From Bryoerythrophyllum caledonicum (taxonomy: Eukaryota > Streptophyta > Bryopsida > Pottiales > Pottiaceae): a stretch of DNA of 64,000 nt. The translations under genes were made by a program, and so were the position numbers. Below, one piece after another: positions 26,301 through 64,000 of the stretch. Position 1 is the stretch's first letter, and each line of letters begins with the position of its first letter. The notes beneath the pieces were generated by a model. That model made no database searches. It worked only from the letters and a program-made list of their open reading frames with translations, and had not been told where the DNA came from. The stretch lies in contig OZ020518.1 in NCBI GenBank assembly GCA_963971425.1, forward strand, positions 28,712,770-28,776,769. The letters run 5' to 3'.

Positions 26301-26779
26301 AAGGGCTTGTTTGATTGCTTTAGTTGGTGTACTGTAGTATATTTTGAATTCACTATGTGACATTAGATTTAGACCATTTGGGAGTGTTAAATGTTTAATC
26401 TCATGTATGTTTTGAAGTAATAATTTGTTGAGGAGTTTGTGATTTTGCTTAAGGGTGAAGTGTGGTAATATTTCTGATGATAGGTTTAGCCACATTTGTT
26501 CAAGAGGTGTGGCTTCAAGTGGAAAGTTTCTTGTTGTACTTCTCAAGTGAGCGCCTCCACATCGTTTGATAAGATAGAGTGTTCTTGTTGTAGGTGATCT
26601 TAAACAATTGTATTGTTTAATTCTGGGAATCTCTTGCGCTCCGCCGTATTTAGCAAGTATAAAATGTGTAAAACCTCTATAGATTATTCCCAATTTTCCT
26701 GTGTCATTAAGAGCATTGCGTAGTTGTTCACCTATGCACCTTAGGTATGCGTTCTTTAATGAGAATGCTTCTATGCCAA
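23332..26779 (-). pseudogene. LINE ORF2, C-terminal part, L-B
   Basis: Two long frames, 26693-25758 and 25482-23332, carry the post-RT region. A Cys/His knuckle lies in EQLFCYSTCNPQC plus NPCSEH (about 26290-26240). RNase H spans about 24790-24380: YYTDGSF, RAETMAIY, HIFTDC and AHANIDGNEKADELAKQG keep all four acidic catalytic positions. The C-terminal zinc motif CSICDSQDPHTWLHVLLKC is at about 24000-23940. A frame change lies between 25758 and 25482. The last residues are IGVQPP before the TAA at 23332. With the 5' part it is the same gene split by the LTR element. Confidence 0.87.
26775..26779. other. Target site duplication GCCAA, left
   Basis: GCCAA directly left of the LTR end. The same five bases follow the right LTR at 43191-43195. 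On the minus strand they are TTGGC, inside the FG codons of L-B ORF2. Confidence 0.88.
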
Positions 26780-26999
26780 TGTCGTAGTACGTGATGGCAA
26801 GTATTCACATCTTAACACAAAGATACCCTTAAGGTAATCGTTCCCACAGAGAGTCACCGAGAACTACAACGACTAACATCAAGCCAAAAATCTATACCAT
26901 GTCAACTATACAATCGGTATATCAAAAAGAAAGGAGGGAATAAGGGTTTAGATCACAAAGCCTGGGTGTTAATTACACCAATTCCCCATTCTTCGTACG

Positions 27000-27112
27000 C
27001 GTGTTGTCTCCTTGTACGTCGTAGGTCGTACATTCGTACGTCCTACATTCGTACGTCCTACCTTTGTACGTCCTACCTTTGTACGTCCTATCTTTGTACG
27101 TACTACCTCGCA
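27000..27112. repeat. 15-bp tandem array near LTR end (3' LTR)
   Basis: About seven units of GTACGTCCTACCTTT and variants (ACATTC, ATCTTT endings), ending at GTACGTACTACC. The same array is at 38613-38725 in the 5' LTR. Confidence 0.85.
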
Positions 27113-28184
27113 CGGGTAGTAAAGACTTCTATTACTCAAACCTTAGATTAGATCTGAGACTTATAGTAACACCTATGCACAATGTGGACAGCCTGAGTAC
27201 ATGCGTACCCGGCAAACGGGGGGGTTGTATTACCAAGGATGTTGATCCGAGGACTCACAGAGATTTTAGTGTTTGACACAAGTAACCGAGACTCTTCCTC
27301 CCATTCTCTCCTTCTACCTCTACTCACTCACTTAGATGGTTATGGCGTCACTGAGATCCCCCCGAGGGGGTGTTAGACCCGTGTTTCCGAAACTGTGAGT
27401 GGCGTAATGTAAGTGAGCAAGGGGTCTACCCGCCCACTATCCGTCCTCCTCTCAGTCTCCCTCCACATCCAATGTGGCTGGAGGTAAGATGTTCAGGGGA
27501 TGATACGAGTCTTCACAACCGACACCAATCGGTACGCCGGAAGGTCACTCAAGACTCATTGGGACCCTTATCCATCCGTCACTCCCCCCTCGTCCTTCCC
27601 TAGACACGTACAATCTCACCTGTTATTCCCATCCACCCCAACTATTCTACTTGATGGAACAAGGAAACAACTGTAACGGTTTAGAGTTAGAGTCACGCCC
27701 CTACTAACTATCCTCTCACCTCACCTGTTATTCCCATCCACCCGGACTAATCTACTTGATGGAACAAGGAAACGATGATTAGATAATTAGTATAGACTTG
27801 AGGAGTGGACTACTTGAAATGGCACTCACAGTCATATATGCAATCCGAGCTCTCCAACCTTCGAAGGTCTTCTCAGAGCGTAGGTTTAGAATTAACATTG
27901 AAAGCAAATACACACATCAAGCAGTGAAGAGAGAGGCCACGAGGCTTCTCTCTTATACCGCCAAGGACCCACACAAGAGTCCAAACTCAAAAGATACCTA
28001 AAACGGCGCATTAACTACTCTTGGCGGCGGTGGCCGCCACTACTCACGACGTGCACCTTCAGAAGGTGACTTATTACACAAATCCCAAGGCAAAACCAAG
28101 TCAAAACCAAAGTCAACCGGGGGCCAAATCCCGGAATGAACAGTGACCTACGAAACAAGATCCTTATCCTATAGGCGTAAGTTT

Positions 28185-30179
28185 TTACCTACCCTGCGCC
28201 AACTCCTCGAGCCTCTTCTTCTCCTCCTTCCTTCTACGTTTCTTGGAGCTTCGGCTTGAAGACGGGGTGGGTGCGGCCGTAGCAAGTGCCATCAAAGGTG
28301 CCAGAGTGGCATCCGTGGGCTGAGTCGGAGTGGCAAATGAACGGGACATGGTTTCTCTTGTAGAGAAAGTGGTGGCCATCCCGGTGGAGGTAACGGGTAA
28401 GGATACTAGAACTGGAGGAAACTCGGACCGAGATGGGAGGATTGATACCTGGGTCGGAGTTGTCATGATATCCGGGCCGGATGTAAGAACCGGGAGGTGC
28501 AAATGAGAAGAACTCTCACTGGTAGTCTTCCCAAGGGGAAAGACACTCGATAAAGGTGCCATAATTGGCGCAGAGCGAACGGTGTCACCTCGGGGTGGCT
28601 GGCGATGACGGATCAAGGGTGGAGGTTCCACCCCTGCATCTGAGCTCTCCTTCCATCCACTTTGCGTCTGGGTGGTGATTTCTGAAGGAGAGGGTCTCGC
28701 CGGAGTCCTCGAAGGTCGTACGAGAGGAGATGGACTGTCAAGGTCCACCACAGCTTTCCCCTTGTTGTTACCCGTACCACGATCTTCCGTATCGGAGTCC
28801 GAATCTCCGTCCTTGCTTGAGCTGTCGGAGTCATCCACGAACTTGGGTAAGATATGTGTGAGGTTGCTTACCAATAACCTCATGCTGGCATAAGCCTCCT
28901 CAACCTTCACGGTTTGCTCCATCATGAATGCGATCACCCTCTTGCTCGAAACGTGGTCATCCCTCTCCAACCTAGCATCGAACATCCGGGCCTTGAGTAC
29001 AACATCTGCAGGTAGGTGCAGGGCATCCTCCACTCGTTGTAATGCCTCCGCAGAAGCATTGGCTTGGAGAAGAGCTTCCTTCTGCCTCTTCTCTGCCTCC
29101 AAGGCCCGACTCTTCATCTTGGTCATCTCCAAGGTGAGCCGGTGGACCTTCTGTTCCATACTACGGAGGTCGCTCGCTCCTCCTATACTTTCCTTGACCG
29201 CCGCGACTAGTCCTTGGATGGGTGGATTACCCACCAAACTACTCACATGTGCCAAGGTCTTGTCGGTGTCATCTACGTATACCCGTAGGGCCTCAATGAG
29301 TTCAGATGCCCGGTAAGTCTTGTCTCCGAGGTGTGCGGGCCCTGTAACTGCTGCGCGGAGTGCGGCTCGGGTCCGAGTGGCAGGGGCTCCTCCTTCTCTC
29401 CTTTTCTGACGCTTGGGGGGTGGAGGCGCCTCTTCTGCTGATGGGGAGGAGGTGCTTCCTCCCTCAGAACCCGACTCGTACTCCGACTCTGTCCCCTGGA
29501 ACTTCTTCATCATCAAATGGGTCCCGTACGCCGTTGTCTCCTCTGGCGTGGTCTCCTTGAAGTGATGATAGAGGTGGATCAAGAAGGGACAAAGAGGAGA
29601 GCGCTTGGCATTGCTAACACTCTTGGTCAACCGGAGTACTACGTCCTTCACAATGATGGCCCAATTTACCATCCTCTCTCCTAAATACGATCCGTACACG
29701 GTGTTAGCAAGAGTCATAGTAACTCTCGTGGGTTTTTCAGGGTGTAGAATGGGTATGAGGAAAGCAAAGACCCGTCGGGCTCGAGAGTCTATGCAATCCT
29801 TCAAACCATAACCGTTCTTGGAGTCCTTGGTGTCGAATCGTCCCTTGCCATACTCCTCCTTCTTCAAACTCGTCCATCCTGCACCCTGTCGAGGGAACTC
29901 GTACACCTCCTGCCACTTACCCATAGTCCACCGGTCTGGACAAGCCCGGATACTATCACCCTCAGGTTCCGGTAATGGGTCTTGCCTTAGTTCTTGCACG
30001 GTAGACTCGATGCAGAAACTCCAACAAAAGTTAAAGAGGGAGAGACATCCCATGCGAAGGAGGTCCTCCTTGAGTTCGGTAAGCTCAAGGGGATCCTTGG
30101 GGATGGCGGGGGAAATGGCCTTCACCGAAGACAGGGTCGGGTTGGAGGAAGCCATGACCCCTCCCTTGTTGCTAGACAT
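28185..30179 (-). CDS. LTR-encoded protein of unknown function (3' LTR copy)
   Basis: An open frame of 664 codons lying wholly inside the LTR, in the same sense as gag-pol. I take the ATG at 30179; the frame stays open 11 codons upstream but without another ATG. Seen: a globular N-terminal part (about residues 25-225, with CLSLFNFCWSF, MVNWAIIVKDVVLRL and CPFLIHLYHHF), a Ser/Glu-rich stretch, a basic PPPPKRQKRR cluster near 255, a likely coiled coil (about 340-385), an acidic Ser/Asp block near 450-468, a Ser/Thr/Pro-rich region, and a basic tail SSKKRRRKEEKKRLEELAQ. The basic clusters suggest nuclear entry. The N-terminal part faintly recalls putative plant transposon-associated proteins; I cannot name a family. 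Confidence 0.72.
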   Translation of the reverse strand: MSSNKGGVMASSNPTLSSVKAISPAIPKDPLELTELKEDLLRMGCLSLFNFCWSFCIESTVQELRQDPLPEPEGDSIRACPDRWTMGKWQEVYEFPRQGAGWTSLKKEEYGKGRFDTKDSKNGYGLKDCIDSRARRVFAFLIPILHPEKPTRVTMTLANTVYGSYLGERMVNWAIIVKDVVLRLTKSVSNAKRSPLCPFLIHLYHHFKETTPEETTAYGTHLMMKKFQGTESEYESGSEGGSTSSPSAEEAPPPPKRQKRREGGAPATRTRAALRAAVTGPAHLGDKTYRASELIEALRVYVDDTDKTLAHVSSLVGNPPIQGLVAAVKESIGGASDLRSMEQKVHRLTLEMTKMKSRALEAEKRQKEALLQANASAEALQRVEDALHLPADVVLKARMFDARLERDDHVSSKRVIAFMMEQTVKVEEAYASMRLLVSNLTHILPKFVDDSDSSSKDGDSDSDTEDRGTGNNKGKAVVDLDSPSPLVRPSRTPARPSPSEITTQTQSGWKESSDAGVEPPPLIRHRQPPRGDTVRSAPIMAPLSSVFPLGKTTSESSSHLHLPVLTSGPDIMTTPTQVSILPSRSEFPPVLVSLPVTSTGMATTFSTRETMSRSFATPTQPTDATLAPLMALATAAPTPSSSRSSKKRRRKEEKKRLEELAQGR

Positions 30180-30312
30180 CCTCCGTCTTTCCTTCCTCCG
30201 CCTCGTGCACAACCTCCGGGCTCTCGTCCTGCGGACACCTTGTACGTACCTTTCTTACCTCGCCGGCATGGATTTCCTCCGAGGGTCGTTTCTTCCTTAG
30301 ACAACCTCCTAG

Positions 30313-30848
30313 TTCTTGTGTACAGGCTGCTCGTGGTCGGGTTCGCTTCCGGGCTCCTGTGTACACAGCGTGCTGGTGGTCGGGTTGCCTCCGGGCTCGT
30401 ACCAACAGCTTGGTCGTCGTCGAGTCGCCTCCGGGCTCTTGCAAACCGCCTGGTCGTCGTCGAGTCGCCTCCGGGCTCGTACAAACAGCGTGCTGATGGT
30501 CGGGTTGCCTCCGGGCTCGTACAAACAGCGTGGTCGTCGTCGAGTTGCCTCCGGGCTCGTACAAACAGCGTGGTCGTCTTCGAGTCGCCTCCGGGCTCTT
30601 GCAAACAGCCTGGTCGTCGTCGAGTCGCCTCCGGGCTCGTACAAACAGCGTGATGATGGTCGGGTTCGCCTCCGGGCTCTTGCAAACAGCCTGGTCGTCG
30701 TCGAGTCGCCTCCGGGCTCGTACAAACAGCGTGCTGATGGTCGGGTTCGCCTCTGGGCTTGTACAAACAGCCTGTTGATGGTCGGGTTCGCCTCCGGGCT
30801 CGTACAAACAGCCTGGTCGTCGTCGAGTCGCCTCCGGGCTCGTCCTGA
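30313..30848. repeat. 40-bp tandem array R1 (3' LTR)
   Basis: About 13 units with a 40-41-bp period, each holding CCTCCGGGCTCG followed by TACAAACAGC or TTGCAAACAGC and GGTCGTCGTCGAGTCG or GATGGTCGGGTT. Long Arg/Ser-rich frames exist on both strands only because the units lack stops. Copy in 5' LTR at 41926-42461. Confidence 0.93.
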
Positions 30849-31107
30849 TTCTAGTCTACTTCCTGTTGACTCTCTCTCGCTCTATGTCACGGTGTAGAGC
30901 TGAATGGGAGAGTTTGTTAAGTAGTCGGTGTTGGTGCGACTAGGAAGATTCCTTCTGCCCGCGGTTGAAGCATCCGCGTCTCTTCCTTTCGCTCTTGCTT
31001 TCCAGGTTGTATTCCTGATCTCCTTATCTTGAGTACGATTGTAGTCTCCAGGTTCCTCGTTGCCTTTTCCCACTTGGTGGACAGCCTTTACGTAGTGATG
31101 ACCAGTT

Positions 31108-31470
31108 CAGCCTAAGGGCTTGGGTATGGAGTAGCCTCCGGGCTCGGGTAGGAAGCAGCCTCCGGGCTCGGGCAGGGAGTAGCTTCCGGGCTCGGGTAGG
31201 GAGCAGCCTCCGGGCTCGGGTATAAATCAGCCTCCGGGCTCGGGTATGAAGCAGCCTCCGGGCTCGGGCAAGGAGTAGCCTCCGGTCTCGGGTATGAAGC
31301 AGCCTCCGGGCTCGGGCAAGGAGTAGCCTCCGGGCTCGGGTATCGGGAGTAGCCTCCGGGCTGGGGTATCGGGAGTAGCCTCCGGGCTGGGGTATCGGGA
31401 GTAGCCTCCGGGCTCGGGTATGAAGCAGCCTCCGGGCTCGGGCAGGGAGTAGCTTCCGGGCTCGTCCTTC
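31108..31470. repeat. 24-26-bp tandem array R2 (3' LTR)
   Basis: Fourteen units of AGCCTCCGGGCTCGGGTA plus a 6-8-bp variable end (TGAAGC, AAGGAGT, TCGGGAGT). It shares the core CCTCCGGGCTCG with array R1. It lies near the start of the LTR in element sense, where U3 enhancers are expected. Confidence 0.93.
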
Positions 31471-31632
31471 GTGTTTTTAGGATACTTAATCGGTCCTCAC
31501 TAAGGGTTGTCCTTAACCTATCTAATAAACCATACTAAGGTAGTATTAACCCAATCCCTGAACTAATTAGCCTAAGATTATTATAATTAACTTCCTAACC
31601 TAAAAATTTTCGAAATTCGTGGTATGACATTA

Positions 31633-31642
31633 CCCCCTTCTC
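31633..31642 (-). other. Polypurine tract
   Basis: GAGAAGGGGG on the minus strand, three bases (TAA) before the 3' LTR. This is the expected primer site for plus-strand DNA synthesis. Confidence 0.8.
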
Positions 31643-32909
31643 ATATGGGAGCGTCCTCGCGAGCAAACCACTCGTCCTCCAACTCGTCCTCGGTTGTTTC
31701 ATCCTCGCGTTATAATTTAACCCGTGAAACGATGGTTCTGGTCTCCAAGAAGTTTCCTTGTAAATCTTTTAATTGTAAGGATCCGTTCGGAAATACCTCA
31801 TGTACTTCAAAGGGTCCCATCCATTGGCGATGTAATTTACCTGGAGAATCTTGGTGTCTGCTATCGAAGAGCAGGACAAGGCTCGTAACCTCAATGCAAT
31901 TGTTGCTGGTCAACTTCAGGTCGTACGTCCTCTTTCTCCGAGCTTGGACCTCTATCGTTTGTTGCAGCGCGTCACTCCGGGCTTCTTCCAAGGCATCAAG
32001 TCCAGCAAATCGTGCTTCTAGGGAGGTACCTCTAGTAGCGTGTCTGGAGGCCAAGACCCGGTGGGTCTCTATGTCCGTCTCGATGTGTTGTAGCACCTCT
32101 TGTCCATGGACGAGGAAGTAGGGACTCCTTCCGGTGGTGGTCTTTCTTGTCGTGTTGTAGGCGTATATGGTGGAGAAGAGCTTCTTATCCCAGTCCGTTT
32201 TGTGTGCCGCGACCACTTTGTTGAGGATTCCCCCTACTATACCATTTGCACGCTCGGTAAGACCATTGGCCTTCGGGTTGTAAGGCGTGGTCTTCCTATG
32301 CTTTATGGAGTACCTGGTGGTTAGATCCTGAATTACTTCATTCAGAAAGTGAGTACCCCTGTCACTAACAATCTCAAGGGGATGACTGAACCTCATACAT
32401 ATTTGCTCGAAGAGGAAGGCGGCCGAGGTGTTGGCATCATTTCTCCTGGTCGCTCGAGCTTCGACCCACTTGGTGGCGTAATCCGTGGCCAGGATGATGT
32501 ACCTACTCCTGTTCTTGCTCACCGGGAAGATGGGGCCGATGAAATCTATTCCCCATTTTTCGAAGGGTGCCAAGGGAATGATGGGAGTCAAGGGCCAATG
32601 ATTCCGGGTGGCCGGATTGTCGGTTCGTTGGCACGGGTCGCAACTTTGGACGAAAAGCTTTACGTCCCGATGGAGGTGCTGCCACCAGTATCCCGCCGCT
32701 CGAATCCGCTCCACGGTGCTCATCACAGCGAAGTGTCCTCCCGCAGGGTCATCGTGTAAGGCACGGATGACATGTCTCCTCTCTTTCAGTTCTAGACACC
32801 TTCGTAACTTCTTGTCGGGTCCAAACTTGAAAAGTATCCCTTCAATGAGGGTGTAAGGAGCTACCTTGTGCTGGAATACGGCCTTCTCTTCTCTGCTACT
32901 CCCTTCCGG
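31641..32909 (-). pseudogene. Integrase region of pol
   Basis: Open frame from the stop at 32910 to a TAA at 31710, then in the same frame to a TGA at 31641 next to the polypurine tract. An HHCC zinc motif precedes the core (HDDPAGGH ... CDPCQ). The D-D-E core is visible as KWGIDFIGP, SDRGTHF and NGLTERANG. Beyond it lie GPFEVHEVFPNGSLQLKD and, after the TAA, an acidic tail with EDEWFAREDAPI. The enzyme joins element DNA to the host genome. It is in frame with gag but separated from RNase H by a TAA. Confidence 0.9.
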
Positions 32910-33491
32910 TTACGTGTGATCGCGGAGATAGGATCGTATGTCTTTGTACTCGGAGTCCGCGTCGGAACCTGTTTGGAAGATTAACACTTCTTCCGTGGTT
33001 TGTCCTTCTTCTTCAACGTGGTGCTCTCTCGCGGTGCTTGGCTTGAAGGTATGATGCTGGGCAGGGCATTGAAGGGTATCCGGGTTCTGATCCGTGTTGT
33101 CTTCCTGGCGGGAGTCCGACGTAAATTCAGGGAATTCGTCGGGGAATTCTATTTCGAGGTCGTTGGCACTCTCCGATCCTCGTTGTCGCGATAGGTAGTC
33201 GGCGTTTTGGTTGGCCTTGCCGGGCTTTACTCTCACCTCGTAGTTAAACTCTTGAAGCAGAAGTATCCAACGAGCAATCCTCCCTGAAAGGTCGGGCTTG
33301 TTCACAAGGTACTTCAGTGAGTCATGGTCGGTGTGGAAGACGATCTTGTATCCCAGAAGGTAATGGCGGAACTTCTTACAAGCGTACACCATTGCCAAAG
33401 CTTCCCTCTCGGTGGCGGTGTAGTTCCTCTCCGCTGCGTTCATCTGTTGGCTAGCGTAGTAGATGGGCTTCTCTCCGCCACTTGGTCCTTC
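32910..33491 (-). pseudogene. RNase H region of pol
   Basis: Continues the pol frame after the TAG at 33492-33494. Shows the Ty3-type RNase H pattern: YTATEREALAMVYACKKFRH, FHTDHDSLKYLV and NQNADYLSR; the first Asp (TLDASG) is in the preceding segment. Followed by an acidic linker and a TAA at 32910-32912. It removes the RNA strand after reverse transcription. Confidence 0.9.
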
Positions 33492-35567
33492 CTACCACAA
33501 GATTGCTCCTAGGCACCATCCAGATGCGTCAAGAGTAACGTGAAAATCCTGCTCCCATTGGGGTGGGGATAGGATGGGCGCGGACGATACTCGTACCTTG
33601 AGTTCTTCAAAGGCCGCTTGTCTTTGTTCTGTCCACGCAAACTCTTTATCCTTCTTGAGTAGTTCCGTGAGAGGGGCGGCCAGTTGGGCGTACTTGTGGA
33701 TGAAACGTCGGTAGTAGCCTACGCATCCTAGGAACCCTCTTATTTCTCGCACATTGGTCGGTGCCAATAGCTGGAGTATCGCCTTTACCTTGTCGATGTC
33801 TACGTGCAGTCCATCCCTACTGACAACATGCCCTAGAAGTACGCCGGAGAGCATCGCAAAGAAACACTTACCCGGGTGTAGTTTCAGGTTGGTTTCTCGG
33901 CACCTCTCGAACGTCTTCCGTAAGTACCCCAGGTGGTCCGCGTGAGTACTGAATACCGCAAAATCGTCTATGAACACTTCTAGGAAATGCTTAAGGAAGT
34001 CGTGAAAGATATCCATCATCAGGCGCTGAAAAGTGCCAGGCGCGTTGCATAGCCCGAAGGGCATGCGGTTGAATGCATAGGTGCCCCATTCCGTGGTGAA
34101 GGTTGTTTTCAGTTGGTCGGCTTGTCTAATGGATACCTGATTGTACCCAGAGAACCCGTCCATGAAGCTAAAGCACTCATTCCCTGCTACGTGATCCAAC
34201 ACCATGTCAATGAAAGGAAGGGGGAAGTAGTCTTTCTTGGTGGCCGAGTTTAACTTGCGAAAGTCCTGGCACACACGGATTTTTACCTTCCCATCTCGTC
34301 CTATCTTCTTGGGTACGATCACTATGGGTGATACCCACTCCGAGTTGTTGACCGAGTATATGAACCCGGCCTCCAACAGTTTGTCCAACTCCTCCTTTAC
34401 CATAAGTGAATACTTAGGGTTCAGGCGGTATTGGCGTTGCCTGACTGGTACGGCACCCTCCATTAGATCTATCCGGTGCTCTCCTAGTCCGGCGGGTATA
34501 CCGGTCAGGTCGGAAGTCTCCCACGCAAATACGTCCACAAACTCTTGCAGAAGATCGGTGTACAACTTCCTCTCTCCCTTTGTTAAGTTCTTTCCGAGGT
34601 TGAACGACTTGCCTGGAAGGACTTCGAGGGTGTCGTAATCTTCAGGTGATACGACGGGTTTGGTGCGATCGGCTCCATCTAACCCGATCAGGCTTGGGTC
34701 GCTCCATTGTGGAGGTGTTTGTAGATGTTCACCCTCTTGTATTGGCAGGGTCCCTCCTTCTAGTTGTTTCCTTACCCACTCTTGAGTAAGGAGGTGCGAA
34801 GCCTCTCCTAGTGAGCGATCTTCCTGTGGGTACAGGTTGGCGTCCGGTCTGGGCTTCTCCTCGTCCAACTCCTCCACCTCTCCTTGCTCCTGGACTGCCT
34901 CCACGAATCCGTAGTCCGTTTCGACTTGGTCCCTGAAGTTTTCTACAAGGTAGGACGAGATAGAATCATCCCCTTCCTGGTCTGACCAATTGGAGGTATA
35001 ACCTTCGTTGTCACTGGTCTCTCCCATGGCTTCTTCATGTTTCCATGGAAGAGAGGTAGGTGGGTTACCAAAGGTGAACTCCTTCTTACCCCAGTTCACT
35101 CGTACGTCTGCAAGATACAACCAAAGGCGTCCAAGGAGCAATGGGAAAGGCTTACCCATTTCGACTTTAAGTATGACGTAGTTGAGAGGATAGGTGATGG
35201 GGCCTATCTTGGTGGGAATACTAGACAACCTTCCTAAGGGTAAGACTCGAGATTGGTCGGCCATCCGTAGGACTTGATTTGTAGGATCAAAGGCAGTATA
35301 CCCTAAGTCATTGGCAAACTCTTCTGTCATGAGGTTGACTCCCGATCCTCCATCGACAGGTACATTACGGATCAGGCACCCATCTATCTTTACGGATATT
35401 TCTGGGGCACCGTAATCTTCTACTGCGGAAAAGTTTACGGCCACAGTGGGGAGTCGGATCCTACGCCGCCTAGAGTGGGTACAAGCTTCTTTGACTATCT
35501 TCTGGTAGTTGGGGTTGTCGCGTAGGAGTTGGCCTATAGTCACATTGGCCTGTGATCCTCTAATATC
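33492..35567 (-). pseudogene. Protease and reverse transcriptase region of pol
   Basis: Same frame as gag; open from the TAG at 35568 to the TAG at 33492. Counted from 35543, an aspartic protease box (VPVDGGSGVNLM) is at residue about 62-73. An acidic linker follows (about 165-245). RT spans about 385-560: PIVIVPKK, RVCQDFRKLN, FSFMDGFSGYNQ, MPFGLCNAPGTFQRLM and VFIDDFAVFS, the last holding the catalytic Asp pair. Then LGHVVSRDG and the start of RNase H. The protease box DGGS departs from the usual DTG/DSG but is seen in some plant Ty3/gypsy lineages. Confidence 0.92.
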
Positions 35568-36089
35568 CTAAAGGATGTCATATTCGTCTACTCTGAGATT
35601 CGGTTCCTTCCCTATAGTGAGACCGGTCGCAAATCTAACTTGGCGTCCGATTCTCGTTTCCTGCTCTCTTGGACTCACTAACTGTCTTCTTACTTCCGCA
35701 CTAATGTCTGGGCAGGTGGTATCTACCCCCTTCTCGGCCTCGGCTAAGGGGTCTCCTATAGGGCTCGGGATAGCTCGGGGATAGCTCTCGTATGGGTTTG
35801 CCCGGATAGGTTCCAGGCCAGCCCGGATAGGATCCGGGCCAGCTCGGATAGGATCCGGGCTAGTCTCTTGATTTCCTTCTTGCTCTGTTTGCGGGGTGTC
35901 CAAAGGTTCGGGATCAGAGGTCCCGTGATCGGTATCCGAACTAGAAATACTACTACTTCTTCCCTCCGACCTTGCTAAAGGTCGGGACGTTCTACTCCTA
36001 TGCTTGTGACGATTGGTTCGGGTGGAACTGCGAGTACTAACCTTCTGGACTACTTCCTCCTTAATGCCTGGCTGTTCCACCTCCTCCCG
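35568..36089 (-). pseudogene. Gag-pol linker region
   Basis: In-frame continuation after the gag TGA at 36090-36092, to a TAG at 35568. The sequence is basic (STRTNRHKHRSRTSR) then Ser/Asp-rich, with a short tandem (GPDPIRAGPDPIRAG). No domain is recognised; it joins gag to the protease. Confidence 0.7.
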
Positions 36090-37826
36090 TCATTTTGGGG
36101 GGTTCTCCACCCCTTGAGTGTTGCCGTAGTTTAAGGCCGTCTGACTCCGGGGAGGGGTCTCCACCTGTTTGTATGTTACCTTTGGCACCGGCGGTTGTGG
36201 ACAGTGGGGTGCGTCATGTCCATACTGCTGACAGTTCTGGCAAGGTAGCTCCAGCGGTGCCCCTTGTCCACCTCTTCTTGGCTGGTCACAAGCATTAGCA
36301 AAATGGTAGGGGGAACCGCAATTGTAACACACCGGCGTACCTGCTGGAACGGAGTACGGGGGGTACAACGTTGGGGTCGGGACGTACGAAGTTACGCCTT
36401 GGTAGGCCGGTTGTTGGTAGGCTAGTTGCTGAAAGGCCGGCTTGTACCCGAGTTGTCGCAAAGGTGGGTTGGTGGCTCGGTAGGTGGGAGCTGCACCTCG
36501 TCCTCGGCCGTAGGAGGGGAGTACTTGGTAGACGGGGGCTTCTTCCTCTAATACCTCTTCCTCTTCTTCAGCCCAGTAGCTCGTCGTTCCGTCGGCATTG
36601 ACAAGGTGCACCCTCTTTGGTCCGTATTTTGGGCACTCCCGGTTGGCATGTCCGGCCTCTCCACACTTGGTACACCATACATTGTTTCGTACCGTAGGTA
36701 TGGACCTTCGTGGTGTCGGGTTGGCTGCTAGGTTGACCTTGATTGCCTCCATGGTGTCTCGGAGGCTCTTTAGTACCTCCTTTGATTCTTGGGCTTCCAC
36801 CTTGACCTCCTTCAGCCGCCGTGCTGTTTTCTCGTCCGCTCGAGACAGGTTTCTGTGGTGCGTGGTTTTTGCGGGGGTATCACTAGAAGATTCCTCACTT
36901 GAGGACGAGCTGGAGGAGCTATCCTCCGAACTGGACGAGTCGCGCTTCGACATCTTCTTCTTCTTCTTGGTGTCGGTGGTGGCGTATTTGTCGCGCGACT
37001 TCCTCATCGAGTGAAGGGAGTCCTCATAATCTTGGGCTGCATCTATGGCTTCTGCAAGGGTCGTAGGTTTGGCCATTCTTACCGCAAACCCCATAGCGGA
37101 GGGGAGGCCTCCGATAAACCACTCCTTCTGCAATCTCGGGCTTCCCTCCGTCGCACACTTCTTGATGAGGCTCTTTACTCTCTGGTTGTACCTGCGCACC
37201 AGCTCTTTGTCCTTCATGGTGATCTTGTTCAACCGACTTAGAGCACGTGATTCTCCTCCCGATTCGCGAAAAGCTTGGATGAAGTGGTCCTTGAGCTCCT
37301 CCCAATCTGCCTTCACCTCGTCCGACAACCCATGGTACCAATTGAGAGCTTCGCCCTTCAACAACCCGGGAAAGACCCGAAGTCGCGAGGCATCATCCTC
37401 CTGGTTGGCCATGGCAATTGTCTCGAACTCCCCGAACCATTCATCGACGTCCGCCTCTCCATTTCCTTTGAACGAGCTATATCTCAGGCGGGTGGCGGGT
37501 CGAGCCATGGTGGTGGGTGTTTCGCCTTCTTGGACCTCTTGGTATTTAAAGTTGAATGACGTGGCCTGTCCTAGGGGGCTTACTTCAAAGTTTTCTAAGA
37601 AGGGCTCAAAAGACGGAGTTAGAGGTGGCGTGTCACTCCCTACATAAGTGTGTACTTCCAGGATGTCTACTAGGGGACTTACGACCCTTACTCCTCTACT
37701 TGGCCTACGGGTTGGGGTATTTCTAGGACTAGGTTCGGCAAAGAAGGGCTGGCTTCCTCGTCTTGTACCTCTATTTCTACGTTGGGACCGACGTACTCCT
37801 ATTTCGCTAGGTTCTTCCTGACTCAT
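36090..37826 (-). CDS. gag: Gag polyprotein
   Basis: 578 codons from ATG at 37826 to TGA at 36090. The N-terminus is basic. A retrotransposon gag core lies at about 105-260 (FKGNGEADVDEWFGEFE, GEALNWYHGL, RYNQRVKSLIKKC, EWFIGGL). A Lys/Ser-rich stretch follows (about 285-320), then three CCHC zinc knuckles: CTKCGEAGHANREC (about 385), CYNCGSPYHFANAC (about 500) and CQNCQQYGHDAPHC (about 529). Gag forms the particle that packages the RNA. Three knuckles are more than the usual one or two in plant Ty3/gypsy. The frame is open and looks intact. Confidence 0.93.
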   Translation of the reverse strand: MSQEEPSEIGVRRSQRRNRGTRRGSQPFFAEPSPRNTPTRRPSRGVRVVSPLVDILEVHTYVGSDTPPLTPSFEPFLENFEVSPLGQATSFNFKYQEVQEGETPTTMARPATRLRYSSFKGNGEADVDEWFGEFETIAMANQEDDASRLRVFPGLLKGEALNWYHGLSDEVKADWEELKDHFIQAFRESGGESRALSRLNKITMKDKELVRRYNQRVKSLIKKCATEGSPRLQKEWFIGGLPSAMGFAVRMAKPTTLAEAIDAAQDYEDSLHSMRKSRDKYATTDTKKKKKMSKRDSSSSEDSSSSSSSSEESSSDTPAKTTHHRNLSRADEKTARRLKEVKVEAQESKEVLKSLRDTMEAIKVNLAANPTPRRSIPTVRNNVWCTKCGEAGHANRECPKYGPKRVHLVNADGTTSYWAEEEEEVLEEEAPVYQVLPSYGRGRGAAPTYRATNPPLRQLGYKPAFQQLAYQQPAYQGVTSYVPTPTLYPPYSVPAGTPVCYNCGSPYHFANACDQPRRGGQGAPLELPCQNCQQYGHDAPHCPQPPVPKVTYKQVETPPRSQTALNYGNTQGVENPPK

Positions 37827-38369
37827 GAAGGTTCATGGTATTGCCTAGGCACTCACTACGTCTATCTTTTGATCTAGGAGGATTGGTCACAACTACTAAC
37901 TATTCTAATGAGCTAGCTGTCTTGCTTAGAAAGTGCTCGAATCTCTGCTTGGATCTGTGCGCGGACACGGCTTGGGCATGGTACGGGTGTGTATTGAACA
38001 CGGCACGGACACAACACGAGTACAGCTACTTTCGCAAGATCTAGACAGACTTCACTCACTTGAGGTCGGACAGTCACCTCGGATGATATACCTTCCACCG
38101 GCGTTTCCATTCCAAGAATGGAGTTCCGGCCTTCGTTGTCCGCCGGTTCTGAGTAAGGTACTTGAGCCGCTCCCCTTATAGACACCGCCACTCGGGCAGT
38201 TCGGGAGCGAACTTGGAAGCGATCGTGATGGAAGGTTAATGCTCCTTCACTATCTCCCACGCTATCTCTCTTCGCCTCGAAGCTGCTAAGTATCCAAGGA
38301 TCACAAAATTAGTTTCAGAAAGAATATACAACAAGACAAGCTATTAGTCTTTGAGTTCAGCGAAGTGAA
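37827..38369 (-). other. Untranslated leader between PBS and gag
   Basis: About 540 nt with no conserved frame; expected to hold packaging signals, none of which I can point to. Confidence 0.6.
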
Positions 38370-38387
38370 TCCCCGGCAGCGGCGCCA
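38370..38387 (-). other. Primer binding site (tRNA-Asp type)
   Basis: TGGCGCCGCTGCCGGGGA on the minus strand starts five nt after the 5' LTR. It is complementary to the 3' end of a plant tRNA-Asp (CCCCGGCARCGGCGCCA). This primes minus-strand synthesis and fixes the orientation of the element. Confidence 0.85.
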
Positions 38388-39797
38388 CTTCGTGTCGTAG
38401 TACGTGATGGCAAGTATTCACATCTTAACACAAAGATACCCTTAAGGTAATCGTTCCCACAGAGAGTCACCGAGAACTACAACGACTAACATCAAGCCAA
38501 AAATCTATACCATGTCAACTATACAATCGGTATATCAAAAAGAAAGGAGGGAATAAGGGTTTAGATCACAAAGCCTGGGTGTTAATTACACCAATTCCCC
38601 ATTCTTCGTACGCGTGTTGTCTCCTTGTACGTCGTAGGTCGTACATTCGTACGTCCTACATTCGTACGTCCTACCTTTGTACGTCCTACCTTTGTACGTC
38701 CTATCTTTGTACGTACTACCTCGCACGGGTAGTAAAGACTTCTATTACTCAAACCTTAGATTAGATCTGAGACTTATAGTAACACCTATGCACAATGTGG
38801 ACAGCCTGAGTACATGCGTACCCGGCAAACGGGGGGGTTGTATTACCAAGGATGTTGATCCGAGGACTCACAGAGATTTTAGTGTTTGACACAAGTAACC
38901 GAGACTCTTCCTCCCATTCTCTCCTTCTACCTCTACTCACTCACTTAGATGGTTATGGCGTCACTGAGATCCCCCCGAGGGGGTGTTAGACCCGTGTTTC
39001 CGAAACTGTGAGTGGCGTAATGTAAGTGAGCAAGGGGTCTACCCGCCCACTATCCGTCCTCCTCTCAGTCTCCCTCCACATCCAATGTGGCTGGAGGTAA
39101 GATGTTCAGGGGATGATACGAGTCTTCACAACCGACACCAATCGGTACGCCGGAAGGTCACTCAAGACTCATTGGGACCCTTATCCATCCGTCACTCCCC
39201 CCTCGTCCTTCCCTAGACACGTACAATCTCACCTGTTATTCCCATCCACCCCAACTATTCTACTTGATGGAACAAGGAAACAACTGTAACGGTTTAGAGT
39301 TAGAGTCACGCCCCTACTAACTATCCTCTCACCTCACCTGTTATTCCCATCCACCCGGACTAATCTACTTGATGGAACAAGGAAACGATGATTAGATAAT
39401 TAGTATAGACTTGAGGAGTGGACTACTTGAAATGGCACTCACAGTCATATATGCAATCCGAGCTCTCCAACCTTCGAAGGTCTTCTCAGAGCGTAGGTTT
39501 AGAATTAACATTGAAAGCAAATACACACATCAAGCAGTGAAGAGAGAGGCCACGAGGCTTCTCTCTTATACCGCCAAGGACCCACACAAGAGTCCAAACT
39601 CAAAAGATACCTAAAACGGCGCATTAACTACTCTTGGCGGCGGTGGCCGCCACTACTCACGACGTGCACCTTCAGAAGGTGACTTATTACACAAATCCCA
39701 AGGCAAAACCAAGTCAAAACCAAAGTCAACCGGGGGCCAAATCCCGGAATGAACAGTGACCTACGAAACAAGATCCTTATCCTATAGGCGTAAGTTT

Positions 39798-41792
39798 TTA
39801 CCTACCCTGCGCCAACTCCTCGAGCCTCTTCTTCTCCTCCTTCCTTCTACGTTTCTTGGAGCTTCGGCTTGAAGACGGGGTGGGTGCGGCCGTAGCAAGT
39901 GCCATCAAAGGTGCCAGAGTGGCATCCGTGGGCTGAGTCGGAGTGGCAAATGAACGGGACATGGTTTCTCTTGTAGAGAAAGTGGTGGCCATCCCGGTGG
40001 AGGTAACGGGTAAGGATACTAGAACTGGAGGAAACTCGGACCGAGATGGGAGGATTGATACCTGGGTCGGAGTTGTCATGATATCCGGGCCGGATGTAAG
40101 AACCGGGAGGTGCAAATGAGAAGAACTCTCACTGGTAGTCTTCCCAAGGGGAAAGACACTCGATAAAGGTGCCATAATTGGCGCAGAGCGAACGGTGTCA
40201 CCTCGGGGTGGCTGGCGATGACGGATCAAGGGTGGAGGTTCCACCCCTGCATCTGAGCTCTCCTTCCATCCACTTTGCGTCTGGGTGGTGATTTCTGAAG
40301 GAGAGGGTCTCGCCGGAGTCCTCGAAGGTCGTACGAGAGGAGATGGACTGTCAAGGTCCACCACAGCTTTCCCCTTGTTGTTACCCGTACCACGATCTTC
40401 CGTATCGGAGTCCGAATCTCCGTCCTTGCTTGAGCTGTCGGAGTCATCCACGAACTTGGGTAAGATATGTGTGAGGTTGCTTACCAATAACCTCATGCTG
40501 GCATAAGCCTCCTCAACCTTCACGGTTTGCTCCATCATGAATGCGATCACCCTCTTGCTCGAAACGTGGTCATCCCTCTCCAACCTAGCATCGAACATCC
40601 GGGCCTTGAGTACAACATCTGCAGGTAGGTGCAGGGCATCCTCCACTCGTTGTAATGCCTCCGCAGAAGCATTGGCTTGGAGAAGAGCTTCCTTCTGCCT
40701 CTTCTCTGCCTCCAAGGCCCGACTCTTCATCTTGGTCATCTCCAAGGTGAGCCGGTGGACCTTCTGTTCCATACTACGGAGGTCGCTCGCTCCTCCTATA
40801 CTTTCCTTGACCGCCGCGACTAGTCCTTGGATGGGTGGATTACCCACCAAACTACTCACATGTGCCAAGGTCTTGTCGGTGTCATCTACGTATACCCGTA
40901 GGGCCTCAATGAGTTCAGATGCCCGGTAAGTCTTGTCTCCGAGGTGTGCGGGCCCTGTAACTGCTGCGCGGAGTGCGGCTCGGGTCCGAGTGGCAGGGGC
41001 TCCTCCTTCTCTCCTTTTCTGACGCTTGGGGGGTGGAGGCGCCTCTTCTGCTGATGGGGAGGAGGTGCTTCCTCCCTCAGAACCCGACTCGTACTCCGAC
41101 TCTGTCCCCTGGAACTTCTTCATCATCAAATGGGTCCCGTACGCCGTTGTCTCCTCTGGCGTGGTCTCCTTGAAGTGATGATAGAGGTGGATCAAGAAGG
41201 GACAAAGAGGAGAGCGCTTGGCATTGCTAACACTCTTGGTCAACCGGAGTACTACGTCCTTCACAATGATGGCCCAATTTACCATCCTCTCTCCTAAATA
41301 CGATCCGTACACGGTGTTAGCAAGAGTCATAGTAACTCTCGTGGGTTTTTCAGGGTGTAGAATGGGTATGAGGAAAGCAAAGACCCGTCGGGCTCGAGAG
41401 TCTATGCAATCCTTCAAACCATAACCGTTCTTGGAGTCCTTGGTGTCGAATCGTCCCTTGCCATACTCCTCCTTCTTCAAACTCGTCCATCCTGCACCCT
41501 GTCGAGGGAACTCGTACACCTCCTGCCACTTACCCATAGTCCACCGGTCTGGACAAGCCCGGATACTATCACCCTCAGGTTCCGGTAATGGGTCTTGCCT
41601 TAGTTCTTGCACGGTAGACTCGATGCAGAAACTCCAACAAAAGTTAAAGAGGGAGAGACATCCCATGCGAAGGAGGTCCTCCTTGAGTTCGGTAAGCTCA
41701 AGGGGATCCTTGGGGATGGCGGGGGAAATGGCCTTCACCGAAGACAGGGTCGGGTTGGAGGAAGCCATGACCCCTCCCTTGTTGCTAGACAT
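39798..41792 (-). CDS. LTR-encoded protein of unknown function (5' LTR copy)
   Basis: Same 664-codon frame as 30179-28185, with an identical translation. In this copy the ORF lies downstream of the U3-side arrays R2 and R1 and upstream of the primer binding site and gag, so transcription starting near the arrays could give a message with this ORF first. No splice site linking it to gag is evident. Confidence 0.72.
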   Translation of the reverse strand: MSSNKGGVMASSNPTLSSVKAISPAIPKDPLELTELKEDLLRMGCLSLFNFCWSFCIESTVQELRQDPLPEPEGDSIRACPDRWTMGKWQEVYEFPRQGAGWTSLKKEEYGKGRFDTKDSKNGYGLKDCIDSRARRVFAFLIPILHPEKPTRVTMTLANTVYGSYLGERMVNWAIIVKDVVLRLTKSVSNAKRSPLCPFLIHLYHHFKETTPEETTAYGTHLMMKKFQGTESEYESGSEGGSTSSPSAEEAPPPPKRQKRREGGAPATRTRAALRAAVTGPAHLGDKTYRASELIEALRVYVDDTDKTLAHVSSLVGNPPIQGLVAAVKESIGGASDLRSMEQKVHRLTLEMTKMKSRALEAEKRQKEALLQANASAEALQRVEDALHLPADVVLKARMFDARLERDDHVSSKRVIAFMMEQTVKVEEAYASMRLLVSNLTHILPKFVDDSDSSSKDGDSDSDTEDRGTGNNKGKAVVDLDSPSPLVRPSRTPARPSPSEITTQTQSGWKESSDAGVEPPPLIRHRQPPRGDTVRSAPIMAPLSSVFPLGKTTSESSSHLHLPVLTSGPDIMTTPTQVSILPSRSEFPPVLVSLPVTSTGMATTFSTRETMSRSFATPTQPTDATLAPLMALATAAPTPSSSRSSKKRRRKEEKKRLEELAQGR

Positions 41793-41925
41793 CCTCCGTC
41801 TTTCCTTCCTCCGCCTCGTGCACAACCTCCGGGCTCTCGTCCTGCGGACACCTTGTACGTACCTTTCTTACCTCGCCGGCATGGATTTCCTCCGAGGGTC
41901 GTTTCTTCCTTAGACAACCTCCTAG

Positions 41926-42461
41926 TTCTTGTGTACAGGCTGCTCGTGGTCGGGTTCGCTTCCGGGCTCCTGTGTACACAGCGTGCTGGTGGTCGGGTTG
42001 CCTCCGGGCTCGTACCAACAGCTTGGTCGTCGTCGAGTCGCCTCCGGGCTCTTGCAAACCGCCTGGTCGTCGTCGAGTCGCCTCCGGGCTCGTACAAACA
42101 GCGTGCTGATGGTCGGGTTGCCTCCGGGCTCGTACAAACAGCGTGGTCGTCGTCGAGTTGCCTCCGGGCTCGTACAAACAGCGTGGTCGTCTTCGAGTCG
42201 CCTCCGGGCTCTTGCAAACAGCCTGGTCGTCGTCGAGTCGCCTCCGGGCTCGTACAAACAGCGTGATGATGGTCGGGTTCGCCTCCGGGCTCTTGCAAAC
42301 AGCCTGGTCGTCGTCGAGTCGCCTCCGGGCTCGTACAAACAGCGTGCTGATGGTCGGGTTCGCCTCTGGGCTTGTACAAACAGCCTGTTGATGGTCGGGT
42401 TCGCCTCCGGGCTCGTACAAACAGCCTGGTCGTCGTCGAGTCGCCTCCGGGCTCGTCCTGA
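41926..42461. repeat. 40-bp tandem array R1 (5' LTR)
   Basis: Same array as 30313-30848, without visible change in unit number. Confidence 0.92.
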
Positions 42462-42720
42462 TTCTAGTCTACTTCCTGTTGACTCTCTCTCGCTCTATGT
42501 CACGGTGTAGAGCTGAATGGGAGAGTTTGTTAAGTAGTCGGTGTTGGTGCGACTAGGAAGATTCCTTCTGCCCGCGGTTGAAGCATCCGCGTCTCTTCCT
42601 TTCGCTCTTGCTTTCCAGGTTGTATTCCTGATCTCCTTATCTTGAGTACGATTGTAGTCTCCAGGTTCCTCGTTGCCTTTTCCCACTTGGTGGACAGCCT
42701 TTACGTAGTGATGACCAGTT

Positions 42721-43030
42721 CAGCCTAAGGGCTTGGGTATGGAGTAGCCTCCGGGCTCGGGTAGGAAGCAGCCTCCGGGCTCGGGCAGGGAGTAGCTTCC
42801 GGGCTCGGGTAGGGAGCAGCCTCCGGGCTCGGGTATAAATCAGCCTCCGGGCTCGGGTATGAAGCAGCCTCCGGGCTCGGGCAAGGAGTAGCCTCCGGTC
42901 TCGGGTATAAATTAGCCTCCGGGCTCGGGCAAGGAGTAGCCTCCGGGCTCGGGTATCGGGAGTAGCCTCCGGGCTCGGGTATGAAGCAGCCTCCGGGCTC
43001 GGGCAGGGAGTAGCCTCCGGGCTCGTCCTT
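42721..43030. repeat. 24-26-bp tandem array R2 (5' LTR)
   Basis: Twelve units against fourteen in the 3' LTR. Two 26-bp TCGGGAGT-type units are missing and some units carry TATAAATT endings. Confidence 0.92.
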
Positions 43031-43190
43031 CGTGTTTTTAGGATACTTAATCGGTCCTCACTAAGGGTTGTCCTTAACCTATCTAATAAACCATACTAAG
43101 GTAGTATTAACCCAATCTCTGAACTAATTAGCCTAAGATTATTATAATTAACTTCCTAACCTGAAAATTTTGAAAATTCGTGGTACGACA

Positions 43191-43195
43191 GCCAA
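43191..43195. other. Target site duplication GCCAA, right
   Basis: Matches 26775-26779 across the LTR element. Removing one copy and the element restores codon continuity of L-B ORF2. Confidence 0.88.
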
Positions 43196-46100
43196 ACATA
43201 TCATGTGGCAATTGGGTAATTACGTTGGGAGTGCAATTCGGTAGCCCACAAATTTTCTTTTGTATCGCTATAATTTTTTTGTCTAGTTTTTTAATAGCAG
43301 GTAGTGAGTTTGGTACCGCGTAAAAACTATATGCAATGCCTGCTCTTATAACTGTGTCTACCATGCTGACTTTTTGTTTAATAGTAGCTGGACAATTTGC
43401 TAATTGGTTGCATTGTTTAATTAGTTTGGTGGTTGTTGTGTGTGTCTGTATTTTTCAATTGAATGATGGAACTAGTTGTATTCCTAGATATACATATGGC
43501 TCATTTTGATGTAGTATGGGAATCGGTTGGTTTCTGTATGATATATTTGCAGCTTGTATTAGTGCTTTGAAAACTATTTGATTTGCTTTGGATTTGTTTG
43601 GGCATCCAGTAATTGCACATTTCGGAATTCCTAGGTCCATTCCTGCCCATACGCATAATTTGTCCATTTTATTTAGTTGATTTTTTATTGAGGGAAGTTT
43701 GTTTGTTATGATTGCAAGATCATCTGCGTATGCTGCTGTATTTATTGTTGTTTTTGAAGTTCCCAAGGTATAGCCGTATTTTCCTCTTTGTAACCATCGT
43801 AAAAGTGGTTCTAGAAAAATAAGAAAGAGATATGGGCTAAGTGTATCTCCTTGTATTGTGCCTCTTTGTATGGATATTTTTTGGGTTTGGCCAAAGTATT
43901 CACCAGTAAAAATGGTGTTAGACTGTGAGTAGATATCTCCCACTAGCATTACCGCGTCCTCAGGGTATCCTAAATCTTTCATAATGGTTAGTAGACGGGC
44001 GTGGTCAATCGAGCCAAATGCATTTTTGAAATCTATATAGAGTAAATATATATCTTGCGTTGTTAGTTGTGCATCTTCTAAGGCCGCTATTAGTAATTGT
44101 AATTGTCTGGATGTGCATCTTTCGGCACGGAACCCTTCTTGGCTGTCATGTTGAATTTGGTATTTTTCTCCGTATGCTGAGAGTATTGATGTTAGTGTAC
44201 TTGTAAAAAAATTGTATATAGTGTTGGCTAGCGCTATAGGTCTGTGATTTGGTAGTTGGGATGGGTCACCCTTTTTGACATTTGTATAGTAGTATTGTGA
44301 GGCTTATTTTCTATGATGCCGGAATTTGTTTTTGTTTATAGCAATGTTTAAAGAATAGGAATAAGATGCGGTGGAAGTTTGTAGGCATGTTCTTCAGGAT
44401 AGAGTTGGGTATTTTGTCCGGTCCTGGGGTTTTGTTGTTTGCAAGGTTTTTTAGGCATAAGTCAAAAGTTTCTTGATCAAAGTATGCATGTAGCGGAGTT
44501 TGTGGATGACCTCTTTTATCTATTACAAAGCCTTCTAGGTCATGCCATGGGTATTGTCTAACTCCGCATGTGCATTCAGGAGGGTGATCTGGTAAGTAAT
44601 AACATGTTGGAACAGTGGATTTATTGATAATTGATTGTTGTATGTAAATTTCATTGGCAATGTCTTGTGGGCTCGTTAGTATGTTATTATTACGATCTGT
44701 GATGCAATCTAATGGTGGTGTTTCTTGGTTTTTGAATACTTTATTGATTATCTTTTTTGGGCTTATTTCGTATAATTGTCTGTATTTGGATATAGCCTTT
44801 TTTATACATTCTTTTGTGTAATTTGACCTGATTTTTCTTGCTTTTTTGTTTGCGGTTTTGGCTAGTGTAGCTAGATCATTTATCCATGGTTCAATAAGTA
44901 AGTCGTCATTTGGGGGTGGTGGGATCTTGACATGGGTGTGTTTGTTTAATTCATTGATAATTGGATGTGATCGCCATTGTGGTGTGTTTTTTGTGATATA
45001 TATTGCTTTTCTAATTAGGTGGTATGTTGCAACATGTTTTTTCCATGTTTTTTGGATTTTGCGTGGTAAGTATCCTCCTTGTTTTGAGATTCTATTATTC
45101 AGTGTAGGTATGGGTGGCACGCTACACGTATTTTCTATAGCTTCTGATATTTTTTGAGTGATTTCGTCCATATGGGAGCATGCTAGTTTCCATTGATCCG
45201 AATTTAGATGTTTGTATGATAATATGGTGTCTAGGTCATTTAATTGTAAAGCGTTGTTTTCATAAAAGTTTGTGTTGAGTTTATCTAAATTATCTTGCGG
45301 TATAGGGTTGAGTATTCTAATTGGTCTCGAGGTAGGTGGTGTGGGGTGGCGTGCAATAAGTTTGTTTTGGGGTATGTGTAGTGAAATGGGTGCATGGTCA
45401 GAGTTAAGATTGGCTTCTGTGATTGTGGTACATGTGTATAGATTGTGATTTTGTGTTTTGATATAAAAGCCGTCTATTAGACTTGTATGTGTATAGTTGT
45501 ATCCACCTTGTCTAGAGTAGTTTGTATTTGTTGGGATATATGTTAGTGCTAAGCTATCAATATATGTTTTCCATGCAAAATCTTCATCTTGTGGTGGTGT
45601 GGTATTATGTTCATTTTGTCGTCCTATTAAAGCTATGTCTCTATTAAAGTCTCCACATAATATGAGAGTGTGGTTAGGATATGTGTTAATTTGTGTTGTA
45701 ATAGTTTGTTGTATTATTGGGATTAGTTCAATATCATCATGATGTGAGGGCATATATAGGTGTATTAATAGCCATGGTTGTAGTGGATGGTTTTTTATGT
45801 GTATAATTTGTAAGTAGGGTGAGATTTTTAGAGGGGTTACTATTTTGGTGATATTTCCTGGGTATGCATATTTGTGATTTATTAGTGTAAGTAGTCCTCC
45901 TCTAGCGGGTGTGTAAGGGATCCGTTGTTGAATGCATCTAGTTAGTGCGTGAGTATTGTTAAATACTAGTTTATAATCTGGGAATATATTTTGTATGTAC
46001 TTTATTGATTTGGTGGCAGTTAGTTTAGTTTCTTGGATGGTGATAATGGCCGGGTTTGTATGTAAGGCAAGTTCTTCTAAACTAGGTAATGCAGTATTTA

Positions 46101-56983: not shown

Positions 56984-64000
<7,017 letters not shown>

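Follow-up and report, generated by a model that had tools for sequence, protein, structure and literature searches.

The analysed stretch of DNA, in the following called the window, comprises 64,000 nt of Bryoerythrophyllum caledonicum (assembly GCA_963971425.1, contig OZ020518.1, positions 28,712,770-28,776,769 of the forward strand). In agreement with a land plant, 14 MIR166-like hairpins were obtained, none of them above the cut-off of Rfam; a search for MIR168 provided no hit, which carries no information. It contains a Ty3/Gypsy LTR retrotransposon, as seen from gag, reverse transcriptase (RT), RNase H and integrase in Ty3 order, a pair of long terminal repeats (LTRs) and a 5-bp target site duplication. 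The LTR boundaries were obtained by self-comparison and inspection of the ends. The 5' LTR (38393..43190, minus strand) has a length of 4798 bp, starts with TGTCGTACCA and ends with TACTACGACA; the 3' LTR (26780..31629, minus strand) has a length of 4850 bp. The duplicated target site TTGGC is found outside the 5' LTR at 43191..43195 and outside the 3' LTR at 26775..26779. Between the LTRs there are 9 substitutions and a single 52-bp gap, confined to the first ~335 bp, while the remaining 4516 bp, including the open reading frame (ORF) described below, are identical.

The internal region is likewise read on the minus strand. A primer-binding-site-like sequence TGGCGCCGCTGCCGGGG (38371..38387) is followed by the gag frame with Ty3 capsid and CCHC (36093..37832), whose pol part (31710..36092) provides RT, RNase H and integrase. 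The protease match in pol is weak, and the pol of this copy is broken by in-frame stops. The polypurine tract (PPT) GAGAAGGGGG (31633..31642) lies between pol and the 3' LTR and hence precedes the ORF. An additional, archaeal-type RNase H is described as a feature of the Tat lineage in PMC10508981. At E 0.1 the pol pieces matched no second RNase H family, such that this feature was not found in the element.

A selected gene inside both LTRs

As claimed in the earlier note, a frame with the same translation of 664 aa occurs in gag-pol orientation in both LTRs (28185-30179 and 39798-41792, minus strand). Diverged copies can only be aligned from about codon 9 (MASSN.. / MASNL..), so that the protein is likely 656 aa rather than 664 aa long. 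The true start is thus probably Met9, which places the ORF at 39798..41768 in the 5' LTR and at 28185..30155 in the 3' LTR. The longest stop-free run comprises 689 codons compared to 276 in 500 simulated first-order Markov LTRs. A suggested structured-looking composition could be retained in part: acidic and basic blocks are present in the form of two basic clusters and an acidic serine-rich stretch, whereas a globular start and a coiled coil were not confirmed by structure prediction. AlphaFold, applied without alignment to 230 residues of the N-terminal part, reached a pLDDT of 36 and the model was set aside. The ORF accounts for 2.0 kb of the 4.8-kb LTR. It therefore explains the LTR length of nearly 5 kb only partially, the rest being ~1.4 kb of arrays and leader ahead of the ORF and another 1.4 kb located 3' of it.

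The LTR carries a protein-coding gene that is held by purifying selection along transposing lineages. The dN/dS test that had been proposed for related copies provided values of 0.09-0.19 for each of the 16 retrieved copies whose dS exceeds 0.2. At this depth the ratio is not near 1 and the frame is not broken at random, despite in-frame stops in 47 of the 69 matches listed. Members of a second subfamily share 69% amino acid identity with the window ORF at a dS of about 1.5, and indels across the ORF body are all in-frame in 7/7 subfamily-2 loci. Among 17 clade-1 copies, shared changes were mostly synonymous and without stops (nonsynonymous:synonymous:stop 22:42:0), compared to 86:52:4 for private changes (p = 0.00026). 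The list of matches is incomplete: at least one LTR (C3) that was found by its 3' part holds the ORF and is missing from it, so that absence from this list means little. A chance or dead open frame would be in agreement with the frequent stops among the listed matches and with a subfamily-2 tandem on C2 that carries two stops in each ORF, but is contradicted by dN/dS at depth, the in-frame indels, the length relative to simulated LTRs and the contrast between shared and private changes, leaving it practically negligible. The ORF almost certainly encodes a selected accessory protein, and the idea that such a protein is copied twice per insertion holds, as the ORF is present in both LTRs and is under selection.

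Location of the gene in the putative U3

A TATA-like box TATAAGAGA is found in the 5' LTR 228 bp past the ORF stop (39562..39570, minus strand) and is unchanged in 10/10 aligned copies. We infer that it represents a putative core promoter and that U3 ends just after it. With this conserved box on its 3' side, the ORF likely belongs to U3. Such a position would make it the final reading frame of the genomic RNA, in the order gag-pol-ORF, and reverse transcription would copy it into the 5' LTR. A gene inside the LTR is therefore doubled at each insertion and can outlast the rest of the element. At least 11 of the 20 copies examined are solo LTRs. One fragment in locus L017, first read as part of the window element, comes from an adjacent family next to a solo LTR.

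Plant LTRs are commonly taken as non-coding, and solo LTRs are usually regarded as inert remains. A large selected gene wholly within the LTR alters the meaning of a solo LTR, because an intact gene may survive the loss of gag-pol. Genes within or reaching into U3 are known from retroviruses, namely sag of MMTV and nef. With these the ORF shares the sense orientation and the doubling of a protein gene into both LTRs, provided that it lies in U3. It differs from them by its plant Ty3 context, the far larger LTR, the motif arrays, the many solo copies and the missing Pfam match. By sequence, Pfam scans to E 10 provided no match to the MMTV sag family. Within titles and abstracts of a limited open-access literature no case of a plant ORF inside an LTR was found.

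Word arrays upstream of the ORF

The region between LTR start and ORF contains tandem arrays of the word AGCCCGGA, all in one orientation. In the 5' LTR there are a 24-bp tandem array (42722..43025, minus strand) and a 40-bp tandem array (41978..42456, minus strand), both with the word; the 3' LTR contains a 24-bp tandem array at 31109..31464 and a 40-bp tandem array at 30365..30843 (both minus strand). Near-copies of GAGCCCGGAGGC occur 25 times in the 1.4 kb preceding the ORF, and none were found on the opposite strand, inside the ORF, 3' of the ORF or elsewhere in the window. In 18/20 other copies, 12-52 near-copies each were counted. Two loci (L022 and L023) have unlike repeat units, yet contain AGCCCGGA 20 and 8 times, respectively.

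Genome-wide, a three-fold AGCCCGGA pattern provided 596 matches compared to 0 for the reversed pattern. Arrays of this word with unlike spacers precede 14 of the 17 ORFs of the first subfamily type. Within 5 kb upstream of four subfamily-2 ORF loci checked the pattern was found at none, such that the arrays of this subfamily, if any, use a different word. Of the listed pattern clusters, 15/29 are not followed by a listed ORF, possibly owing to the gaps in the ORF list.

Proposed regulatory role and alternative origins

From the two basic clusters and the acidic serine-rich stretch, the ORF product may be a nuclear regulatory protein. Such a regulator would act on the AGCCCGGA arrays that precede the ORF in the LTR, and would activate or de-silence its own LTR in cis as well as other copies in trans. 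Its mode of action would resemble that of the VANC proteins of VANDAL DNA transposons, whose targets, according to PMC5735166 and PMC10398659, are motifs arranged as rapidly evolving tandem repeats in the non-coding portions of the elements. As in this Arabidopsis system, an element-encoded protein adjoins rapidly changing tandem arrays of a single short motif that lie outside the coding regions of its element, and the array units vary between relatives. Unlike VANDAL, however, the element is an LTR retrotransposon, the ORF matched no known VANC domain in Pfam scans to E 10, and anti-silencing by its product is a prediction.

Of the roles suggested in the note (silencing suppressor, regulator or transport factor), the motif arrays would favour a regulator. 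Pfam scans and a PDB profile search recognised no DNA-binding domain in the ORF. More generally, Pfam scans with the ORF and 11 aligned members to E 10 provided only matches below the curated cut-offs, and the PDB profile search provided none. That the product acts on the arrays as a regulator or anti-silencer is a plausible reading to which we lean somewhat less than halfway. For the explanation as a whole, i.e. a U3 gene for a nuclear, VANC-like regulator of the element's own U3 with a function deduced from the above features, we see the chances as evenly balanced.

A rather unlikely, though the strongest, alternative is that the ORF encodes the accessory protein (env-like, or with a role in transport or import) that plant Ty3 elements can carry after pol. 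The arrays, which could bind a host factor, would then be ordinary enhancers, and the ORF would have become part of U3 once the PPT had shifted to directly behind pol, where it is located here. Accessory ORFs in either orientation between pol and the 3' LTR are a known kind and are described for Retand, Grande and RIRE2 in PMC7264820, which also reports that some of the proteins are nuclear. Like these, the ORF is an extra protein of a plant Ty3 element that follows pol in RNA order. While the described ORFs lie in the internal region, one per element, PPT and LTR start here separate pol from the ORF, which resides within the LTR, on the 3' side of the PPT. Sister Ty3 families in the genome carry a sense ORF after integrase that matches PF20167 (Transposase_32), albeit weakly, at 19/20 fetched loci. 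In contrast, the U3 ORF had no hmmscan match to PF20167, and its profile comparison was not significant and no better than shuffled columns (116/200 column shuffles scored as high, with shallow alignments). Membership in PF20167, which its consensus had led us to expect, was therefore not substantiated by these comparisons; by eye, the part that can be aligned runs in the same order. PF04195 (Transposase_28) was matched neither by the genome at E 0.1 nor by the ORF. An accessory protein of this kind is further opposed by the absence of a transmembrane or env family match, and it leaves the pairing of the protein with the arrays unexplained.

A captured host gene carried as LTR cargo is very improbable. 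Accessory genes can be transduced, as stated in PMC7264820, and the protein is without a Pfam family. However, no separate host gene of lower identity was seen among the matches listed, and the more distant ones are repeated families, in a six-frame search without introns that could miss one.

Returning to the regulator, the most far-reaching version, which we put forward tentatively and think doubtful, is a self-contained LTR cassette in which U3 unites the gene for a sequence-specific activator or anti-silencer with the array that it targets. Each insertion would then deliver two cassettes, of which one would be kept per solo LTR. Solo LTRs would form a dispersed, trans-acting gene pool serving the family, including copies with broken gag-pol. 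This would make the element a candidate LTR-retrotransposon counterpart to the VANC system, with protein and candidate target word both named.

Long LTRs together with an extra ORF are also found in the plant element Retrosat2, with LTRs over 3 kb and an ORF0 of unassigned role according to PMC3485330; there, ORF0 is located in the internal region upstream of gag-pol. A tandem whose integrase is 91% similar leaves space for no more than ~3.1 kb of LTR, and the arrangement of the window element is thus not present in every relative.

The open reading frame in the LTRs and its selection

Translation of both frames gave the same 664-codon product on the minus strand at 39798-41792 and 28185-30179, as the earlier note had described. 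They lie in the 5' LTR (43190-38393) and the 3' LTR (31629-26780) of the Ty3-type element. The longest stop-free run was 689 codons, against 276 in 500 first-order Markov LTRs. 5' of codon 9 the copies could not be aligned between the subfamilies, and the second, diverged subfamily (subfamily 2) carries a matching ATG in those rows that reach this place, which makes MASSN/MASNL the most likely protein start, with a length of 656 aa. The acidic and basic blocks previously pointed out were recovered as basic clusters at residues 256 and 646 and an acidic serine-rich stretch at ~449-467 (numbering of the earlier note); they may represent nuclear signals. All 10 copies that could be aligned past the 3' end of the ORF have TATAAGAGA in common, which in the window lies 228 bp past the stop. 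We infer that R begins here, which would put the ORF in U3.

The genome contains at least 69 matches to the U3 ORF. Among the matches listed, 22 of 69 had no internal stop, one of them being a short fragment, and 47 of 69 had a stop. For dN/dS we used 20 of the best-ranked copies at ~8 kb each and 12 ORF-only pieces, i.e. 32 in total. This comparison of related copies, proposed beforehand as a check, provided values of 0.09-0.19, not near 1, in 16 of 16 fetched copies with dS > 0.2 relative to the window copy. For the same 16 alignments four of the five other frames gave dN/dS ≥ 1.00; one antisense frame gave 0.16-0.32, above the real frame in every copy. The 15 fetched copies with dS < 0.1 ranged from 0.12 to 0.94, and 1 further copy was identical to the window. 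Subfamily 2 has 69% protein identity to the window ORF at a dS of 1.4-1.7, and from nt 25 to nt 1987 frame-breaking indels were absent in 7 of 7 loci.

In clade 1 (17 copies), changes present in at least two copies comprised 22 nonsynonymous, 42 synonymous and 0 stops, while private changes comprised 86, 52 and 4, respectively (Fisher p = 0.00026 for shared versus private nonsynonymous and synonymous changes). For the 7 subfamily-2 loci the corresponding ratios were 13:39:1 (shared, thus including one shared stop) and 56:79:2 (private). These contrasts argue for a purifying pressure that acts mainly along the lineages that transpose. The U3 ORF is a genuine accessory gene under selection, lying within a plant LTR. 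The classic case of a gene in an LTR is sag of MMTV. In titles and abstracts the literature on ORFs in LTRs mostly concerned MMTV or other animal retroviruses, and no plant LTR-encoded ORF was found there, at limited open-access coverage. Accessory ORFs of plant Ty3 elements are described in the internal region (PMC7264820).

Element structure and genomic copies

The window element is flanked by TTGGC target site duplications, with a PBS-like TGGCGCCGCTGCCGGGG 5 bp inside of the 5' LTR and the PPT GAGAAGGGGG immediately before the 3' LTR. Between its LTRs there are 9 substitutions and one 52-bp gap, all of which fall within the first ~335 bp (31629-31296 versus 43190-42909); the LTRs are identical over the other 4516 bp. 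This clustering points to gene conversion or template switching where U3 begins. Gag-pol forms a single frame matching Ty3 capsid, CCHC, RT, RNase H and integrase, with a weak protease match. In the window copy it is broken by in-frame stops, in pol (31710-36092) without a frameshift, whereas the U3 ORF is open. Two of the pol stops could be compared with the element on contig C15, where neither was present.

Of 20 copies examined for their ends, 11 were single LTRs with identical 5-bp flanks and 2 more matched at 4 of 5 bases; the remainder comprised 2 LTRs that belong to a single element, 1 copy with unlike flanks and 4 for which only one end was found. A solo LTR on the small contig C884 (L012) has nearly the flanks of the complete C15 element (L010/L011); both are probably two (allelic) states of one locus. 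At L028 (55-1299 and 6394-7563) an older LTR has its ORF interrupted by a solo LTR of the same family.

Among the matches listed, 11 of 69 ORFs had, by position, a same-strand integrase at a distance of at most 20 kb. Two ORFs bracketing an integrase were seen for the window element on C6, on C15 and in a subfamily-2 tandem on C2, with two stops in each ORF of the latter. In an element on C3, two LTR 3' parts enclose an integrase, and the 3' LTR contains the C-terminal part of the ORF, broken by one stop. A distance of 5-6 kb separates the integrase from the ORF that follows it at C3:26.0 Mb and C1:26.06 Mb. For a tandem on C14 (integrase 91% similar, PPT and LTR start matching), the period of 9.88 kb would accommodate a ~3.1-kb LTR, and an 801-bp sample after another integrase of 89% similarity held no ORF. 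Both count against a general ORF-in-LTR arrangement.

Motif arrays upstream of the ORF

The stretch from the LTR start to the ORF includes two tandem arrays, one of 24-bp and one of 40-bp units. Both contain GAGCCCGGAGGC, with 25 copies at ≤1 mismatch within 1.4 kb, all in the same orientation; the ORF, the sequence 3' of it and the rest of the window had none. Near-copies numbered 12-52 in 18 of 20 other copies; L022 had 2 and L023 had 0. These two are mosaic LTRs (dS to the window ~0.8 in the N-terminal and 0.03 in the C-terminal part), with diverged N-terminal half and arrays and a near-identical C-terminal end. They carry AGCCCGGA 20 and 8 times, respectively, within different repeat units. 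Three AGCCCGGA with 8-37 bp spacers occurred 596 times genome-wide, the reversed pattern 0 times. Among the matches listed, which cover C1 and the part of C2 up to 22.1 Mb, 14 of 17 sub1-type ORFs had the three-fold pattern on their upstream side at a distance of ≤5 kb, compared with 0 of 4 for subfamily 2. Of 29 pattern clusters, 14 precede a listed ORF.

According to PMC5735166, the targets of VANC, the anti-silencing proteins of VANDAL DNA transposons, are likewise one motif re-amplified in arrays with unlike units. By this analogy self-regulation would be the most likely mechanism: the U3 ORF product would regulate its own element through the U3 arrays. Alternatively, the arrays may be an enhancer for a host factor. 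Within pol, a 21-bp repeat (35800-35860) includes a sequence close to that of the LTR word, GCCCGGA, together with its reverse complement TCCGGGC.

Possibly related families and LINE copies in the window

A second repeated family (150 scored matches of 4011 candidates; L061, L062) has an ORF that is similar to the U3 ORF in the N-terminal region, with ~38% over 124 residues in part of it. PF20167 matched at 92 places in the genome with E-values from 7.6e-6 to 0.027, none of them reaching Pfam's cut-off, and 19 of 20 fetched places had an integrase just upstream on the same strand. The U3 ORF gave no PF20167 match in Pfam scans, and profile comparisons from shallow alignments were not significant. 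If both are related, one may conjecture that a PPT shift to the pol end made a post-pol ORF part of U3.

The window element appears nested in a LINE copy, since its flanks (23332-26779 and 43191-46185) align with adjoining segments of the LINE at 56.9-64.0 kb. The latter has a LINE-like ORF of 2296 aa (56984-63874, plus strand) that contains RT, matches RNase H and scores above the cut-off for a PCIF1_WW-type domain (PF12237, E 6.6e-10); phmmer found no PCIF1 match in PDB. A second LINE-like ORF (23332-25482, minus strand) matches PF12237 with a score under the cut-off. It would be unusual for a LINE to carry a domain related to cap methyltransferases.
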